64,000 nucleotides of DNA from Erysipelotrichaceae bacterium (GTDB lineage Bacteria > Bacillota_I > Bacilli_A > Erysipelotrichales > Erysipelotrichaceae). The position numbers and the translations under genes were made by a program. The notes beneath the pieces were generated by a model. That model was not told the DNA's origin. It ran no database searches and was given only the letters and a program-made list of their open reading frames with translations. The stretch is taken from NCBI GenBank assembly GCA_017405785.1, contig JAFQZR010000007.1, positions 1 through 64,000 on the forward strand. Reading direction: 5' to 3'. This document shows positions 30,957 to 58,728 of this stretch, one piece after another. Each line of letters begins with the position of its first letter. Position 1 is the stretch's first letter.

Positions 30957-31904
30957 TCATTCTCCCGTCACTTCGATGATGAATAATTCCAGACCCATGG
31001 CAGCATCCTTACGGCCGTTTTTTATGTCCTGGTCCAGTTCACTCAGTTTTGCCAGTATCTTTAACAGAGCCCGGGAACTGCGTCCCTGAGCCGCTCTTAA
31101 GGTCATGGTAATACGGTATTCCTTGGCATTGTATCTTTCCGCAATCTCCCTGATGAGGTAACCCTGTTCGTTCAGGGCCTTGACCTGGCACATGAAGCGG
31201 AACTGACTGGCCAGTAAGCCCAGAATGCCTGTCGTATCGTTTTTATTGAAGACCATCAGGTCACGGAAACTCTGCAGAGCCTTTGGCAGATTACGGGCAC
31301 TCACCGCATTGGAAAGCCGGAAGACATCATCTTCCAGCGTACGGCTGACCAGAGATCTGACAGCCTTGCGGTCCAGGGTACCTGGATATAAAGTCAGCTT
31401 GGCAAGTTCATTCTTCCAGTTGAGCACATCAACCGGCAGTCTTTCCATCAGGACATCAAAGGCTTCATTGGACATCTTCAGTCCCCGGTTACGGATATCG
31501 TTTCTGACGATGATGCGGAAATCATCATCCGTCAAGGTATCGTATGATTCAGGTCTGAGGTATTTCTTTAACACCGTATAAGCCTTCTTGCGCTTATCAA
31601 AAGGCTTGCTGACATAAACGATCAGAGTGGTGGTATCCAGAGGTTCTTCCAGATACTCCGCCAGTCTGGCGACAGTCTTCTCATCTGAGGCCTTAGGCGA
31701 AACCAGAAAATTAGGATTTTCCAGAATAACCGCCTTGTTTTCGGTAAAGAACGGTGCCGTCAGGCAGGCGTTGATTACCTCTTCAATGTCGATGTCACCG
31801 TAAAAAACATCCGGTTCTTCGTTTTCCAGACCCAGATCCTTAAGGATATTATCTCTGCGCATCTGCAGATTGTAGATTTCCGTTCCGGTCAGCAGATAGT
31901 TCAT
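30957..31904 (-). CDS. holA: DNA polymerase III subunit delta
   Basis: 315 residues. Clamp-loader subunit that opens the beta clamp. N-terminal Y-L-L-T-G-T-E-I-Y and I-L-E-N-P-N-F-L near residue 65, the middle D-x-F-x-L-S-N-A-V region near 202 and a C-terminal helical domain with L-A-S-Q-F-R-F-M-C-Q-V and A-Q-G-R-S-S-R-A-L-L match HolA. The gene commonly follows comEC, as it does here. Its own promoter lies in the 24-bp gap: TTCACA, 17 bp, TATAAT with only 8 nt between -10 and ATG, so the leader is at most one or two bases. Confidence 0.92.
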   Translation of the reverse strand: MNYLLTGTEIYNLQMRRDNILKDLGLENEEPDVFYGDIDIEEVINACLTAPFFTENKAVILENPNFLVSPKASDEKTVARLAEYLEEPLDTTTLIVYVSKPFDKRKKAYTVLKKYLRPESYDTLTDDDFRIIVRNDIRNRGLKMSNEAFDVLMERLPVDVLNWKNELAKLTLYPGTLDRKAVRSLVSRTLEDDVFRLSNAVSARNLPKALQSFRDLMVFNKNDTTGILGLLASQFRFMCQVKALNEQGYLIREIAERYNAKEYRITMTLRAAQGRSSRALLKILAKLSELDQDIKNGRKDAAMGLELFIIEVTGE

Positions 31905-31912
31905 ACAAGTAG

Positions 31913-31941
31913 ATTATATCACCCTTATTCAGTCATGTGAA
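31913..31941 (-). promoter_or_regulatory. holA promoter with minimal leader
   Basis: TTCACA, 17 bp, TATAAT preceded by TGA (extended -10), ending 8 nt before the holA ATG. Confidence 0.6.
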
Positions 31942-33899
31942 TTGAAGAAGAACCCGTATGTTCCCCTGGCACTGCGGTAATAAGTGAAATGACGGTAAAC
32001 ACGGAATTCCACGGCATGGTCTTCCTTGGTACAGAAGGTTCTTACATCATACTGCTGAAGTAAACTGACTGTTTCAGGATCCGGATGATTGAAGCGGTTG
32101 TTTCTGCCGGCTGAGATGACCGCAAATTCCGGTTTATAAGCACCTATCATTTTACCGGAAGTGGCTGTTCTGGAACCGTGATGGGCAATCTTTACCACAT
32201 CGCAATCCAGTTCACCATACTCATTCACCAGTCGTTCTTCTGCTTCTTTATCAATGTCCCCCAGAAACAGAAAACCGTTGCCTTCCAGGCGGAAATACGT
32301 TATCCGGGAATTCACGTTGACATCTTCATATGTCCAGTTGTAACTAAGACAGATGAAATCCACTCCCTTTACCGTCAGCTTTTCCGTTTTATCATAAAAT
32401 ACCCTGTTTACCCTGAATTCCCTTGCCAGAGAATGCAGGCCCCCGGAATGATCAGAATCCAGATGAGAGAGAATGACATCCACGCTGGCCAGTCCCCTGC
32501 TTCTCAGATAAGGAACCAGGATATCATGACCGACATCCTTATAGTAACTGCCTCCCGTATCTATCAGCACACCGTGACTGGACAACGGGAAAGTGATCAG
32601 GGCGCAGTCTCCCTGCCCGATATCCAGATAGGTCACTCGGTAACATAATGACAGCACTGACTGACAGCTGTTGATCAGCAGCAATCCCGTAACATGCAGG
32701 ATGTATCGTTTTTCCCTGGCGATCTGATACTCCATCAGCAGGATAACCATAATGACAAAGAGAATGATGTCACATCGGCCGTTCAGGTAAACTGACGGCA
32801 CTTTTTCAACTGTCTGAATTATCAGTGTCCGCAGATTGTCAAGACGGACGCTTACAGGCATAAACGACAGAATGACCGCCGAAAGATACAGCACGGAAGT
32901 TATTGAAGTTACCAGGGAAAACAACAGCATCCTGATCATTTCACAGTAACCGTAAAAACGCAGCTGACATATGATCAGAAAGACGGTACGTACGAAGAAA
33001 CTGCCTTCGCCGTAATTAAACAGGCTGATAAAGCTCAGTCCCATGGGAATGATGAAAGCCACGCTTTTTATGTAATACGGTCTGTACAGCATTAACACGC
33101 AGGCCTGAAAACCGGTTCTGTCCCTGTCGGTTTCCAACATCCCTTCCGCCAGCAGTCCGGCACATACCCTTACCCATCCGTAAGGAAAGCCGAATACAGC
33201 CGCCAGCAGTAAGGATGTACCGAAGGTCAGCCTTCCGGCCTGTTCACGGTAAAACCACCTCTCATAGATGCGGCGGATCATTCTGACCAGAAAGCTGACG
33301 TGAAATCCGGCATGAGTTATGAAATAACGGAAATCACTGTCCAGATCCATGCCGTTATTAAACAGCAGCTGATTAGCCCAGGCTTGTTGATTACTGCGGT
33401 AATGATCCTGAATGATGCGTCTGACGCTGCAGCCTTTTTCAATTATCTTATATTGAGAAACATTGCCCTGGTAGAAAATACCCTGTCCCTTGGCCCAGTT
33501 GGGAAAAGTTGAGACTTCAAAGTTATCATAACCGTTGATTCTTTCAAAGGAGGTTTCAAATTCAACCAGATCATCCAGTCCGATATTGCCATCCGAGCTG
33601 TAAATAAGCACTTTGTGAAAGCCGTCAGAGATGATCTGATAGCTGTTTCTGATCTCCGTCACTCTTCCTCTGTATATTTCTGAAGGAAATCTGGCACTGG
33701 CGATCAGAAACAGGATCATCAGAATATACAGCATCTTCCTGACTGTTTTATTAACTATGCCCTTAAGGAAAACTGCCCATAGCAGGGCAGCCAGAAGACG
33801 GTGAAAAAGGCTGTCAAGACAGCCCAGGGAGAACAGAATAACGGCTCCGTAAAGCCAGTGTTTCTCTAAAGAGAGATGTATTCCCTGATCTTTTCTAAT
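31929..33899 (-). CDS. comEC: DNA uptake channel ComEC, probably starting at AUU
   Basis: The frame encodes 656 residues from an ATT at 33899; the first ATG, at 33734, gives 601. DNA-uptake channel of competence: N-terminal membrane/OB part, Competence membrane domain, then a metallo-beta-lactamase domain (D-I-G-Q-G-D-C-A-L-I near residue 470 of the long form, S-H-L-D-S-D-H-S-G-G as the H-x-H-x-D-H-type motif, and A-H-H-G-S). The ATT has AGGAG 7 nt upstream, whereas the ATG has AGGAAG touching it. The added 55 codons encode hydrophobic helices (L-Y-G-A-V-I-L-F-S-L-G) as ComEC proteins have at their start. No GTG or TTG exists in the extension. It overlaps comEA by 34 bp. Confidence 0.8.
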   Translation of the reverse strand: MRKDQGIHLSLEKHWLYGAVILFSLGCLDSLFHRLLAALLWAVFLKGIVNKTVRKMLYILMILFLIASARFPSEIYRGRVTEIRNSYQIISDGFHKVLIYSSDGNIGLDDLVEFETSFERINGYDNFEVSTFPNWAKGQGIFYQGNVSQYKIIEKGCSVRRIIQDHYRSNQQAWANQLLFNNGMDLDSDFRYFITHAGFHVSFLVRMIRRIYERWFYREQAGRLTFGTSLLLAAVFGFPYGWVRVCAGLLAEGMLETDRDRTGFQACVLMLYRPYYIKSVAFIIPMGLSFISLFNYGEGSFFVRTVFLIICQLRFYGYCEMIRMLLFSLVTSITSVLYLSAVILSFMPVSVRLDNLRTLIIQTVEKVPSVYLNGRCDIILFVIMVILLMEYQIAREKRYILHVTGLLLINSCQSVLSLCYRVTYLDIGQGDCALITFPLSSHGVLIDTGGSYYKDVGHDILVPYLRSRGLASVDVILSHLDSDHSGGLHSLAREFRVNRVFYDKTEKLTVKGVDFICLSYNWTYEDVNVNSRITYFRLEGNGFLFLGDIDKEAEERLVNEYGELDCDVVKIAHHGSRTATSGKMIGAYKPEFAVISAGRNNRFNHPDPETVSLLQQYDVRTFCTKEDHAVEFRVYRHFTYYRSARGTYGFFFNSHD

Positions 33900-34345
33900 G
33901 TCTTTTCTCCTATGCCTTTGACCTTTGTCAGTTCCTCAACACTCTGAAAAAAGCCGTTGGCTTCACGGAAATCAATGATGTTCTGAGCTGTAACCGGTCC
34001 GATGCCGGGAATCCTGTCGAGTTCTTCCAGAGTTCCGCTGTTTATCGAGATCCTGACGTTTTTCCGTACCTTATCGGGAATGATGATGACATCGTTGTTT
34101 TTAAGAACCATCAGACCGTTAAGTTTGGAAACATCAGCGTTTTCACTCAGCACCGTCAATTCCAGCAGATCGGAGAGATTACTGTAGGCAGGCAGAATAA
34201 AAACACCCGGGTTTTCAACCTCTCCCTTCACTTCAACCCTTATTTCACTGGTACTGAACTGTTCACTGTCAATACCTTCTGCCACCGGTACCGCTAACAC
34301 GGCCAGCACTAAAAAAAGAAACAAACCTCTGGTAATATTGTTCAT
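33866..34345 (-). CDS. comEA: Competence protein ComEA
   Basis: 159 residues. One N-terminal membrane helix (about 6-24), an SLBB domain (V-E-V-K-G-E-V-E-N-P-G-V-F) and a C-terminal double helix-hairpin-helix DNA-binding domain (L-D-R-I-P-G-I-G-P-V-T-A-Q-N-I-I and V-K-G-I-G-E-K-T-L). Receptor for double-stranded DNA on the cell surface, handing it to ComEC. It follows greA by 36 bp without an intervening terminator that I can see. The 3' end carries the ribosome site for comEC. Confidence 0.92.
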   Translation of the reverse strand: MNNITRGLFLFLVLAVLAVPVAEGIDSEQFSTSEIRVEVKGEVENPGVFILPAYSNLSDLLELTVLSENADVSKLNGLMVLKNNDVIIIPDKVRKNVRISINSGTLEELDRIPGIGPVTAQNIIDFREANGFFQSVEELTKVKGIGEKTLEKIREYISL

Positions 34346-34381
34346 ACTACTTATTTGTTTCTTTTTTCGTTTTTTCCTGAA

Positions 34382-34870
34382 TTACTTGACGTTCTGTAAA
34401 GGCTTGATGTCCAGGATCTTTACCTTGTAGGAAGGTGTAACGTTAACGGTAACCGTATCGTTGACCTTGTGATCCAGTAAGGCGATGGCTAACGGAGTTT
34501 CGTTAGACAGCTTGCCATTGAGAGGATCTGCCTCAGCGGTACCAATGATGTCATATGATTCGATTTCCTTGGTGTCCTGATACTCAAAGGTTACGTTGGT
34601 ACCGATACCTACGGTCTTGAGAGCATTGGCGCTCTTCTTGATGATCTTGACATTAGGAAGCATCTCATCAAGTTCACGGATTCTGGCTTCGACTCTGGCC
34701 TGATGGTCTCTGGCAGCGTCGTAATCAGCGTTTTCGGATAAGTCGCCCTGAGCTCTGGCAGCCTTCAGTTCTTCAGCTACCTGGTCTCTTTCGACGTGTA
34801 ATAAGTGATTGTATTCTTCCAGTAACCTGGCATGTCCTTCTTCAGTGACTAATATTTCTTTCTTGTCCAT
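34382..34870 (-). CDS. greA: Transcription elongation factor GreA
   Basis: 162 residues. N-terminal coiled coil with the acidic tip D-L-S-E-N-A-D-Y-D-A-A near residue 44, which enters the RNA polymerase secondary channel and stimulates transcript cleavage. The C-terminal FKBP-like domain has I-V-G-T-A-E-A-D-P and S-x-E-T-P-L-A-I-A-L. It follows udk by 19 bp, the same order as in Bacillus. The first codons M-D-K-K-E-I-L-V-T-E-E-G are usual for the family. Confidence 0.96.
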   Translation of the reverse strand: MDKKEILVTEEGHARLLEEYNHLLHVERDQVAEELKAARAQGDLSENADYDAARDHQARVEARIRELDEMLPNVKIIKKSANALKTVGIGTNVTFEYQDTKEIESYDIIGTAEADPLNGKLSNETPLAIALLDHKVNDTVTVNVTPSYKVKILDIKPLQNVK

Positions 34871-34889
34871 ATATCTTCACTCCTTTGTT

Positions 34890-35519
34890 TTATAACTTGT
34901 GTTCAATGATGCTGGCGATCTTGGTGATCAGTAAGTCCATGGCGACCTTATTGTGAGAGCCTTCAGGGATGATGATGTCAGCCTTTCTCTTGGAAGGCTC
35001 AACGAAGGCATCATGCATGACTCTGACAGTCTGCATGTACTGGTCACATACTGACTCGATGGTACGGCCTCTTTCCCTGACGTCTCTTTTCAGACGGCGG
35101 ATGAATCTGATGTCGGCATCGGTATCAATGAACAGCTTCATGTCGAGACGCTCGTAAATCTGCGGATCTTCCAGAACGAACAGTCCTTCCAGTACCAGGA
35201 CATCGCTTGGATCAACAATTTCCGTGATAGTACTTCTGGTGTGGTTGACAAAGTCATATGTCGGCTTCTCAATTGACTGTCCCGCTGTCAGCATGTCTAT
35301 GTGCTTTATCAGCAGGTCAATGTCAAAGGCATTTGGATGGTCATAGTTGGTCTTCAGACGTTCAGCGAAGATCAGGTGTGACTGATCCTTGTAATAGTCA
35401 TCCATGCGGATGATGGTTACAGTCTTCCCTTCAGCGAAGGCATTGGCCAGAAGCCTGGCAACTGATGTCTTGCCACTGGCGCTTCCGCCGGCAACACCGA
35501 TAATTACAGGTCTCTTCAT
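34890..35519 (-). CDS. udk: Uridine kinase
   Basis: 209 residues. Phosphorylates uridine and cytidine in pyrimidine salvage. Walker A G-G-S-A-S-G-K-T-S near residue 10, then D-D-Y-Y-K near 41, N-Y-D-H-P-N-A-F-D near 58, P-x-Y-D-F near 84, and R-R-L-K-R-D-V-R-E-R-G-R near 142. Placed between mltG (17 bp upstream) and greA (19 bp downstream), as in Bacilli. Confidence 0.95.
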   Translation of the reverse strand: MKRPVIIGVAGGSASGKTSVARLLANAFAEGKTVTIIRMDDYYKDQSHLIFAERLKTNYDHPNAFDIDLLIKHIDMLTAGQSIEKPTYDFVNHTRSTITEIVDPSDVLVLEGLFVLEDPQIYERLDMKLFIDTDADIRFIRRLKRDVRERGRTIESVCDQYMQTVRVMHDAFVEPSKRKADIIIPEGSHNKVAMDLLITKIASIIEHKL

Positions 35520-55387: not shown

Positions 55388-55912
55388 TTACTTTCTTATC
55401 GGCGATAATACACATGATAAAGTATTGCCTTCGAGATTAGGCTGTTTATCAACTGTAGCAACTTCACTTAATGCGTTAATAAAGTTGTCCATGACTTTCT
55501 TGCCAACATCCTGTCTGGTCATCATTCTGCCTCTGAAACGCATGTCGATCTTTACCTTGTTACCTTCAGCGATCCACTTTGTGACCTGTTTTACCTTGGT
55601 CTCAAAGTCACCGATGTCGATGACAGGTGAAAGACGCAGTGCCTTTACTTCTGTAACTTTCTGGTTGCGTTTGGCCTCCTTGGCCTTCTTCTGCTGCTCG
55701 AAACGGTACTTGCCGTAGTCGAGGATCTTGCAGACAGGCGGCTGAGCCTGCGGTGCAACACAGACCAGATCCAGATCGTAGCTGTAAGCTTTTTCCTGGG
55801 CATCTCTGCTGGACATCTTTCCTAATGACTCACCTGTAGGTGAAATAACCAGAACTTCTTTGAAGCGAATGCTTTCGTTGACTAAATCGTCAGGTTGATT
55901 TTTCTTTGCTAT
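55388..55912 (-). CDS. infC: Translation initiation factor IF-3, starting at AUA
   Basis: 174 residues from an ATA at 55912; the first ATG in frame, at 55816, would cut off the conserved N-domain start. The residues before that ATG ([14 protein letters not shown] and G-E-S-L-G) are clearly IF-3. AGGAGG is 9 nt before the ATA. infC genes are known for AUU-type starts that let IF-3 limit its own synthesis. C-terminal domain includes K-A-L-R-L-S-P-V-I and the basic M-R-F-R-G-R-M. First gene of the operon, under the L20 leader. Confidence 0.93.
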
Positions 55913-56113: not shown

Positions 56114-58513
56114 TTAATTGGCTACGATGTTCAGCAGCTTGTTTTTGACGAAGATGATCTTTCTGATCGTCTTGCCTTCCAGCTGAGCCTTAACGGTATC
56201 TAATGCCATGGCTTCATCCTGGATATCTTCCTGACTGCAGTCCTTGGCAGCACCGATACGTCCTCTGATCTTGCCGTTGACCTGGATGACGATCTCAACG
56301 TCATTCTTGACCAGCTTGGCCGGATCATATTCTGGCCACTTGGCATAGGCGATGGTATCTTCACCTGTATACCGGTGATAGATCTCCTCGCACATGTGCG
56401 GAGCATATGGGCTTAACAGCTTGATGAAGTTGATCATCATGTCTCTGTTGACCTTTTCAACTCTGTAGCACTCGTTGATGAAGATCATCATCTGAGAGAT
56501 GGCGGTATTGAAGTTCAGAGTATCAATGTCTTCCGTAACCTTCTTGACTGTATAGTTATAGACATAGTCCAGTTCAGGGGTCGGATCATCGGTGATCTTC
56601 CCTTCACTCTCCATGGCCAGTCTCCAGACTCTTTCGATCCATCTTCTGGCACCTTCAACGCCCTGCTCGCTCCAAGGCTTGCTGGCTTCTAATGGACCCA
56701 TGAACATTTCATAGATTCTTAATGTATCGGCACCGTAATTCTTGACGATGACGTTAGGATCAACGATGTATTCAGGATATCTCTTGCCCATCTTGATGCC
56801 GTTACCGCCCAGGATCATCCCCTGGTGAACCAGTTTATGGAACGGTTCCTTGATTGGAACAATTCCCTTGTCATACAGATAGTTATTCCACATTCTGCTG
56901 TATAACAGATGTCCTACCGCATGCTCAGGTCCGCCAACATACAGGTCGACCGGCAGCCAGTGTTCCATCAGCTTTCTGTCAGCGATCTCATTGTCATTAT
57001 GCGGATCGATGTATCTTAAGAAGTACCAGCTGCTTCCGGCTGAACCAGGCATCGTACTGGTTTCCCTCTTACCCTTTCTGCCATCAATTTCAACATTGAC
57101 CCAGTCAGTGGCCTTATCCAGCGGTGAAGCACCGCCTACAGGCTTGTAGTCATCCAGTTCAGGCAGTACTAACGGCAACTGTTCCAATGGTAAGGAGATC
57201 ATGTCTCCGTCTTCCATGTGAACTACCGGAATAGGCTCACCCCAGTATCTCTGTCTGGCAAAAATCCATTCACGGATACGGTAGTTGACCTTCTTTTCAC
57301 CAATGCCTCTTTCCGTCAGCCATTCTATCATCTTATTGATGGCATCTTCCTTGTTTAATCCGTTCAGGAAATCACTGTTAATGTGTAAGCCATCCTCAAC
57401 GTGGGCTGCCTGGGAAATGTCTCCCCCTTCCAGTACCGGAATGATCTCCAGTCCGAACTTTTTGGCGAATTCATAGTCTCTTTCATCATGAGCCGGAACA
57501 GCCATGATGGCACCGGTTCCGTAGGAAGCCAGTACATAGTCAGAGATCCAGATAGGGATCTTCTTATTGTTAACAGGATTTATGGCATAGGCTCCGGTAA
57601 AGACACCGGTCTTATCCTTGTTCAGTTCCGTACGTTCCAGATCGCTCTTGGTCGATACAGCCTTCTTATATGCCTCAACTGCTTCTTTCTGTTCAGGTGT
57701 TGTGATCTTATCTACTAAAACATGCTCAGGAGCGAAGACACAGTAGGTTGCACCGAATAAGGTATCGGCACGGGTGGTGAAGACCGTAAAGGTCTCAACA
57801 TGACCGTCGATCGCAAACTTTACATGAGCGCCATATGATCTGCCGATCCAGTTACGCTGCATTTCCTTGGTGCTTTCCGGCCAGTCGATCTCTTCCAGAC
57901 CTTCCAGCAGTCTGTCAGCGTACTTGACGATGTCGATGACCCACTGCTTCATGTTCTTTCTGACGACCGGATAGCCGCCTCTTTCACTCTTGCCGTCGAT
58001 TACTTCGTCATTGGCCAGAACGGTTCCCAGTTCCTCACACCAGTTAACAGGCATTTCAACGCATTTAGCTAAACCATCTTCGAATAACAGTTTGAAGATG
58101 TACTGGGTCCACTTATAGTAGGAAGGATCGCATGTTGATAATTCCCTGTCCCAGTCATAGGAGAAACCCAGGTTAAAGAGCTGATTCTTGAAGAATTCAA
58201 TATTGGCCTTGGTGAAAGTTTCCGGGTGGTTGCCGGTACTGATCGCATACTGTTCTGCCGGTAAGCCAAAGGAGTCAAATCCCATCGGATGTAGGACATT
58301 GAAGCCCTCCATTCTCTTCTTACGGGATACTACGTCAGTTGCCGTATAGCCTTCCGGATGTCCGACATGCAGGCCGGCACCGCTTGGATACGGGAACATG
58401 TCCAGTGCATAGAATTTAGGCTTGGAAAAATCCCAGGCATCAGTCTTGAATGTTTTGTTTTCTGCCCAGTATTTCTGCCATTTCTTTTCTGTAACTTCAT
58501 GATTGTAACTCAT
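56114..58513 (-). CDS. leuS: Leucyl-tRNA synthetase
   Basis: 799 residues. Class I enzyme: [15 protein letters not shown] near residue 40 (HIGH), editing domain with [10 protein letters not shown] near 244 and the D-E-R-D-Y-E-F-A loop near 340, W-Y-F-L-R-Y near 500, catalytic loop I-K-M-G-K-R near 575 in place of K-M-S-K-S, and anticodon domain. The K-M-G-K-R form occurs in some Firmicute LeuRS as far as I recall. Controlled by a T-box with a CUC specifier. Confidence 0.96.
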
Positions 58514-58527
58514 ATACCTTCCTCCTG

Positions 58528-58728
58528 CGCCAAAAATAAAAGGCGCTACTCTAAGGACGCCTCAGCGCGGTACCACCTTAGTTCATGCGATTGCATGCCC
58601 TCATTTCAGCCTTAACGCGGCCATTACGTTCTGCTCCCGGGTGAGTTCAGATGACAGTGTACCGGTTTCCATCAGCCACCGGCTTTCTATGGAGCACTGC
58701 TTCACTTACTATTCCGTTCTCCGCATAC
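58528..58728 (-). promoter_or_regulatory. T-box leader of leuS
   Basis: Minus-strand leader with a CUC (Leu) specifier at 58645-58643 in GAACUCACC, the T-box sequence AAGGUGGUACCGCG (58566-58581) and a terminator AGGCG/CGCCU (58541-58562) with UUUUAUUUUU. Confidence 0.92.

Follow-up and report, generated by a model that had tools for sequence, protein, structure and literature searches.

Loss of the canonical comEC start codon in a clade of Erysipelotrichaceae and its probable replacement by AUU

Introduction

Near-cognate start codons have been described in several bacterial genes. The gene for initiation factor IF3, infC, is autoregulated through an AUU or AUA start. In Staphylococcus aureus, near-cognate starts were mapped by ribosome profiling in cvfC1 (AUU), ccpN (AUA), and citZ (AUA), and those that are conserved have extended Shine-Dalgarno (SD) pairing; infC of this organism starts at AUA (PMC13009471). 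AUU and AUA starts in this organism gave about 10% of the output of AUG in poor medium, with ccpN reaching up to 30% in rich medium (PMC13009471). In Streptomyces, sigR has been shown experimentally to use a GTC start that is repressed by IF3 (PMC5472188). Replacement of an ancestral AUG by AUU was recorded for one of 61,358 starts in a survey of 36 groups of related genomes (PMC5622118).

Two further systems are relevant to the locus described here. Neighbouring genes can be coupled in translation when the start of the second overlaps the stop of the first as NTGA (PMC6728339, PMC12548453); at an overlap of 25 nt, a reporter study detected no coupling (reviewed in PMC12548453). In pyrL-type attenuation, the advancing ribosome prevents an intrinsic terminator from acting (PMC5021804). 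In this work, we analyze the comEC gene of an Erysipelotrichaceae bacterium, a gene for which we found no report of a non-canonical start in the literature.

Results

The window analyzed is a stretch of 64,000 nucleotides (positions 1 to 64,000 of contig JAFQZR010000007.1) from a 1.96 Mb MAG, which was compared with eight relatives of the same genus. On the minus strand, the gene order is greA-like, comEA, comEC, and holA-like, where the names of the two outer genes are presumed from their sequence alone. comEA (33866..34345, minus strand; stop TAG at 33868-33866) encodes a helix-hairpin-helix DNA receptor (HHH_3, 1.4e-22) and scores 75.3 bits against TIGR00426, above the cut-off of 53.1. It is directly followed by comEC (31929..33899, minus strand; 656 codons plus stop when counted from the ATT discussed below), whose product has the core and the C-terminal metallo-beta-lactamase-like domain of the ComEC/Rec2 DNA-uptake channel. 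The match to TIGR00361 (ComEC_Rec2) has an E-value of 8e-44, yet at 149.8 bits it falls below the curated cut-off of 190. An AF2 model built from a 27-sequence alignment has a mean pLDDT of 88.5, and the top PDB match in a Foldseek search is the MBL domain of ComEC from Moorella glycerini (9ic4, 1.7e-14). Two sister species (G001, G008) have 65 and 64% protein identity to the window species.

Preceded by an in-frame TGA at 33938-33936, the comEC frame runs without interruption from 33935 to the stop codon at 31929. Its first ATG lies at 33734 (33732..33734, minus strand), and none of the 67 codons upstream is ATG, GTG, or TTG. An earlier note on this DNA had pointed out that the frame lacks such codons for 55 positions (33899 to 33735), which the sequence bears out; a further 12 precede them. 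Across the clade, in none of three independent MAGs is there an NTG between the in-frame stop and a conserved Trp, so that no canonical start exists for the conserved comEC N-terminus in the three species.

Comparison with relatives shows where the start used to be. In six of the eight genus relatives, referred to here as outgroup species, the comEC ATG forms ATGA with the comEA stop. At the corresponding position of the nine-member codon alignment, the window species (33867..33869, minus strand) and both sisters instead have TTA, giving the junction TTAG in all three. Assembly error was rejected as the cause of the missing start, given that the same TTA and the same absence recur in three separate MAGs. 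All 67 other family loci (the 6 genus outgroups plus 21 and 40 further loci) have an NTG comEC start at or near the comEA junction, mostly as a -4 NTGA overlap; in one of them, L096, it lies only 32 nt downstream. This distribution suggests that an NTGA overlap is the ancestral state across the family and that the clade, known from three species only, lost a canonical start that its relatives kept. The loss itself is well-supported. A route through ATGA, TTGA, TTAA, and TTAG would have preserved the comEA stop at every step. The earlier note had held that a clear ATG, GTG, or TTG in relatives would count against a start at ATT; such codons are present in the more distant relatives, but they lie 10 codons downstream of ATT, at the site occupied here by TTA.

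Starts at other positions of this junction were also observed. In six loci of other genera (L060, L061, L071, L080, L085, L097), comEC seemingly starts about 29 nt inside comEA, in a different relative frame and with ATG or TTG. For some relatives in other genera (g31, g40), such ATG or TTG starts about 29 nt into comEA lie beside the same GIGxK codons. Start relocation at the comEA-comEC junction therefore seems to have been repeated in the family.

Comparison of the window contig (116 kb) with a sister contig (181 kb) yielded 103 conserved ORFs in which 100 or more residues could be aligned. Of these, infC and comEC alone have over 20 conserved residues ahead of the first NTG of both species; together with the conservation of the extension in both sisters, this makes the NTG-free stretch of comEC more than a chance feature. 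A stretch at 58509 ranked higher but was shorter. It corresponds to a small ORF on the plus strand that runs antisense to the 5' part of a leuS-like gene, and it was not counted. This NTG-less ORF (about 58509-58640) is 89% identical to that of the sister species and more likely represents a conserved leader than a gene.

The region upstream of the first ATG is conserved protein under strong purifying selection (33735..33869, minus strand; dN/dS about 0.05-0.09, AF2 pLDDT about 90 or more). For codons 11-55, counted from ATT and thus running from TTA onward, pN is 0.04-0.14 and pS 0.51-0.67 against the two sister species; pN in the remainder of comEC is higher, at 0.13-0.26. Variable sites at codon positions 1/2/3 number 2/0/6 in codons 11-20 and 11/4/27 in codons 11-55, and the Trp at codon 15 is kept in all nine genus members. 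The AF2 model has confident helices at residues 15-26 and 31-45 (membrane-type) and a third at 51-68, which begins within the extension; residues 1-12 are disordered and order begins at residues 13-15. Codons 2-10 are without constraint in the comEC frame, as all three substitutions there are silent in comEA and change ComEC. The earlier note had asked whether the extension is conserved in relatives with ATT in the same place. It is in both sister species, but the conserved protein begins near codon 11-15 (33869-33855) and not at codon 1. Use of the ATG at 33734, which as that note described is directly abutted by a purine run (AGGAAG), would remove two confident helices. This codon is CTG in G001 and is an unlikely start.

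Both sisters have an in-frame TGA three codons before ATT, which confines the start to about 17 codons between this TGA and the Trp. In the interval from the nearest in-frame stop to this Trp, ATT (33897..33899, minus strand) is the only codon one change from ATG that is common to the three species, and it is the most likely start codon. An ATA at 33881 was rejected, as it is GTA in G008 and leaves no room for an SD. At the position of ATT, the outgroups carry ACT, TCT, or TTT. ATT is thus confined to the branch on which ATG disappeared, as are the comEA GIGEK codons that give rise to the SD. The candidate SD, AGGAG (33907..33911, minus strand), is separated from ATT by 7 nt (AAAAGAC), again as first reported. 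While its spacing is suitable, the match stems in part from the conserved comEA Gly-Ile-Gly-Glu-Lys codons; ATT and SD together sit in constrained codons for G-I-G-E-K-T-L, and SD-like strings (-2.6 to -11.5 kcal/mol) are also found in the outgroups that use ATG. The duplex with the anti-SD is predicted at -7.3 kcal/mol in the window species and -12.0 kcal/mol in each sister, values that fall inside the range seen for genes of the window, where the median of 42 starts is -9.1 kcal/mol. Synonymous divergence is lower at the 3' end of comEA, though not significantly (p = 0.24).

The genus does make use of near-cognate starts, as judged from infC (55388..55912, minus strand; TIGR00168, 2.7e-57). 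Its start is AUA in the window (55912-55910, with AGGAGG upstream) and AUA in seven of eight genus genomes, with AUC in the other. ORF calling based on ATG, GTG, and TTG truncates IF3 in this genus.

A second conserved element lies within the extension. A 29-nt block, GGCTGTCTTGACAGCCTTTTTCACCGTCT (33796..33824, minus strand), is identical in the three species and is the longest identical run in their comEC alignment; all nine synonymous codons in it are unchanged, compared with 42% on average. It contains a terminator-like hairpin, GGCTGT-CTTG-ACAGCC (33824-33809), followed by T5 (33808-33804). The 6-bp stem is extendable by a G-T pair, has a CTTG loop, and folds at -9.4 kcal/mol. When comEC was randomized synonymously, such a hairpin appeared anywhere in the gene in 0.3% of trials (p = 0.003) and within the first 60 codons in 0.075%. 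Only these three of 273 family genomes have the block. Its location, 42 nt beyond the stop of comEA, is one expected for a terminator of that gene, and 33824-33804 has the conserved G+C-rich stem and T-run that define intrinsic terminators at the sequence level. An Rfam search over 31500-35000 gave no credible known RNA family. Two other structures, a hairpin around the comEA stop and one at 33857-33842, were dropped as they are not conserved in the sisters.

A long hairpin also encloses the comEA start codon (34313..34366, minus strand), with its 3' arm in comEA codons and a T-rich run after it. It is conserved in 16 species of two genera (including L003-L010 and L021-L027) in which comEA follows the greA-like gene. 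Six pairs are changed on both sides, a count reached in 0 of 500 shuffles and exceeding all slid registers. comEA is almost without an SD in the window (-2.2 kcal/mol).

Discussion

We propose that, on the branch leading to the clade, the NTG start of comEC that overlapped the comEA stop was lost as ATGA became TTAG. De novo initiation would then occur at AUU 33899, with an SD within the comEA GIGEK codons positioning the ribosome, and would add about 10 unstructured residues ahead of the ancestral N-terminus. IF3 would reject most of these attempts, as it does at other AUU and AUA starts. As a result, the level of ComEC would be low and set by IF3, rather than held in a fixed ratio to ComEA; low synthesis is a reasonable consequence of an AUU start. 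De novo initiation at AUU is the best explanation, and we consider it somewhat better supported than an even chance. The proposal of the earlier note that comEC starts at an AUU overlapping comEA stands in this qualified form: there is no canonical start and ATT is the best remaining candidate, but the use of AUU is something we infer from sequence.

Its suggestion that comEC is tied to comEA translation is not supported. The clade no longer has the -4 NTGA overlap, the NTG that would overlap the upstream stop in termination-reinitiation being replaced by TTAG, and an AUU start gives an overlap of 34 nt, which is beyond the published spacing for coupling. Since no coupling was seen at 25 nt, reinitiation coupling is unlikely for the AUU site. 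Coupling could persist if UUA were used. The family-wide ancestral state resembles described cases of NTGA coupling (PMC6728339, PMC12548453), whereas the clade differs in its TTAG junction and in the 34-nt overlap of its candidate start.

The main rival holds that the start stayed put, with ribosomes that finish comEA at UAG reinitiating at the overlapping UUA 33869 in the old -4 geometry. Such a start would sit exactly at the family start position, in a TTA conserved in all three species, and would leave the length of the N-terminus unchanged (L-E-K-H-W, against M-S-G-Y-W, M-K-x-x-W, and the family pattern M-x-x-x-W), in agreement with predicted order from residues 13-15; the path to TTAG set out above would be available to it as well. 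UUA is, however, two positions away from AUG, and we know of no natural bacterial UUA start. In addition, TTA is already largely forced by the CTT-TAG of comEA, and the site has a weak SD (-5.2 to -5.5 kcal/mol). On balance we regard this explanation as unlikely, though worth serious consideration. It is considerably harder to accept that each species starts at its first NTG (ATG 33734 here, GTG at codon 20 in the sisters) and that the sequence upstream is non-coding RNA with a conserved hairpin. These are the only canonical codons present and an RNA element is indeed there, but the codons lie at non-homologous positions in the three species, the sisters' GTG being GTT in the window species, which excluded it as a candidate. 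The codon-periodic, protein-level selection on the extension and the loss of two confident helices in the window species also make this account very improbable.

A fusion of ComEA and ComEC through -1 ribosomal frameshifting is a shade less probable still. Relative to comEA, comEC does occupy the -1 frame, which is open through the comEA end. Yet the final 90 nt of comEA contain no X-XXY-YYZ heptamer in any of the three species, and in the sisters the comEC frame opens only three codons before ATT. The conserved hairpin, being 42 nt past the comEA stop, is too far away to stimulate slippage before that stop; the 33824-33809 structure was ruled out as a frameshift stimulator for this reason. 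We give the least credence to silencing of comEC as a decaying gene that has lost its start and gained a terminator. Both changes would cut expression, but the frame has stayed uninterrupted in three species whose synonymous sites approach saturation, and in the body of the gene pN/pS is about 0.2-0.4.

Returning to initiation at AUU, the intragenic hairpin and T5 may form a leaky intrinsic terminator, a reading to which we assign roughly even chances on its sequence features. Such a terminator would further lower comEC mRNA relative to comEA and, as a further guess, might be counteracted by ongoing translation of comEC. In Bacillota, RNA polymerase may outrun the ribosomes. As in pyrL-type attenuation (PMC5021804), there is a terminator-like hairpin and T-run within translated sequence; the comEC hairpin differs in that it lies inside the regulated gene's own frame and in that its terminator is putative.

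The structure at the comEA start may act on the competence operon as an attenuator or as a translation lock. Together with the near-absent SD, it suggests restraint of the operon at the first gene as well. These elements might be combined in a two-stage throttle, in which entry at AUU is set by IF3 and only the entering ribosome blocks the terminator, making comEC synthesis rare and switch-like. The conserved hairpin that encloses the comEA start codon would extend this gating at initiation to the operon as a whole. We consider this combined scheme rather improbable.

Among described systems, infC is similar in its near-cognate AUN start and upstream SD. It differs in its longer SD (AGGAGG, -11.6 kcal/mol) and in encoding its own regulator, whereas comEC, which specifies an unrelated membrane channel, has a candidate start that overlaps comEA. 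cvfC1, ccpN, and citZ of S. aureus likewise represent near-cognate starts in Bacillota, with outputs of roughly 10-30% of AUG (PMC13009471). Ribosome profiling located those starts, and SD pairing is extended at the ones that are conserved, whereas the comEC start is a candidate read from sequence and its SD spans 5-6 nt embedded in another gene. sigR (PMC5472188) shares a rare start codon and repression by IF3, which is established for sigR and proposed for comEC; it differs in its GTC codon, its gene, and its experimental demonstration.

Few cases are known of natural conserved N-termini without a canonical start. For comEC, gene finders that assume NTG would trim two membrane helices off the protein in the window species. 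Replacement of the lost start by AUU is probable, and the regulatory meaning of the change is unproven. If the proposal is true, comEC links DNA-uptake capacity to the level of IF3, and the clade and its outgroups would show a route by which relocation of a start codon uncouples two genes of an operon.
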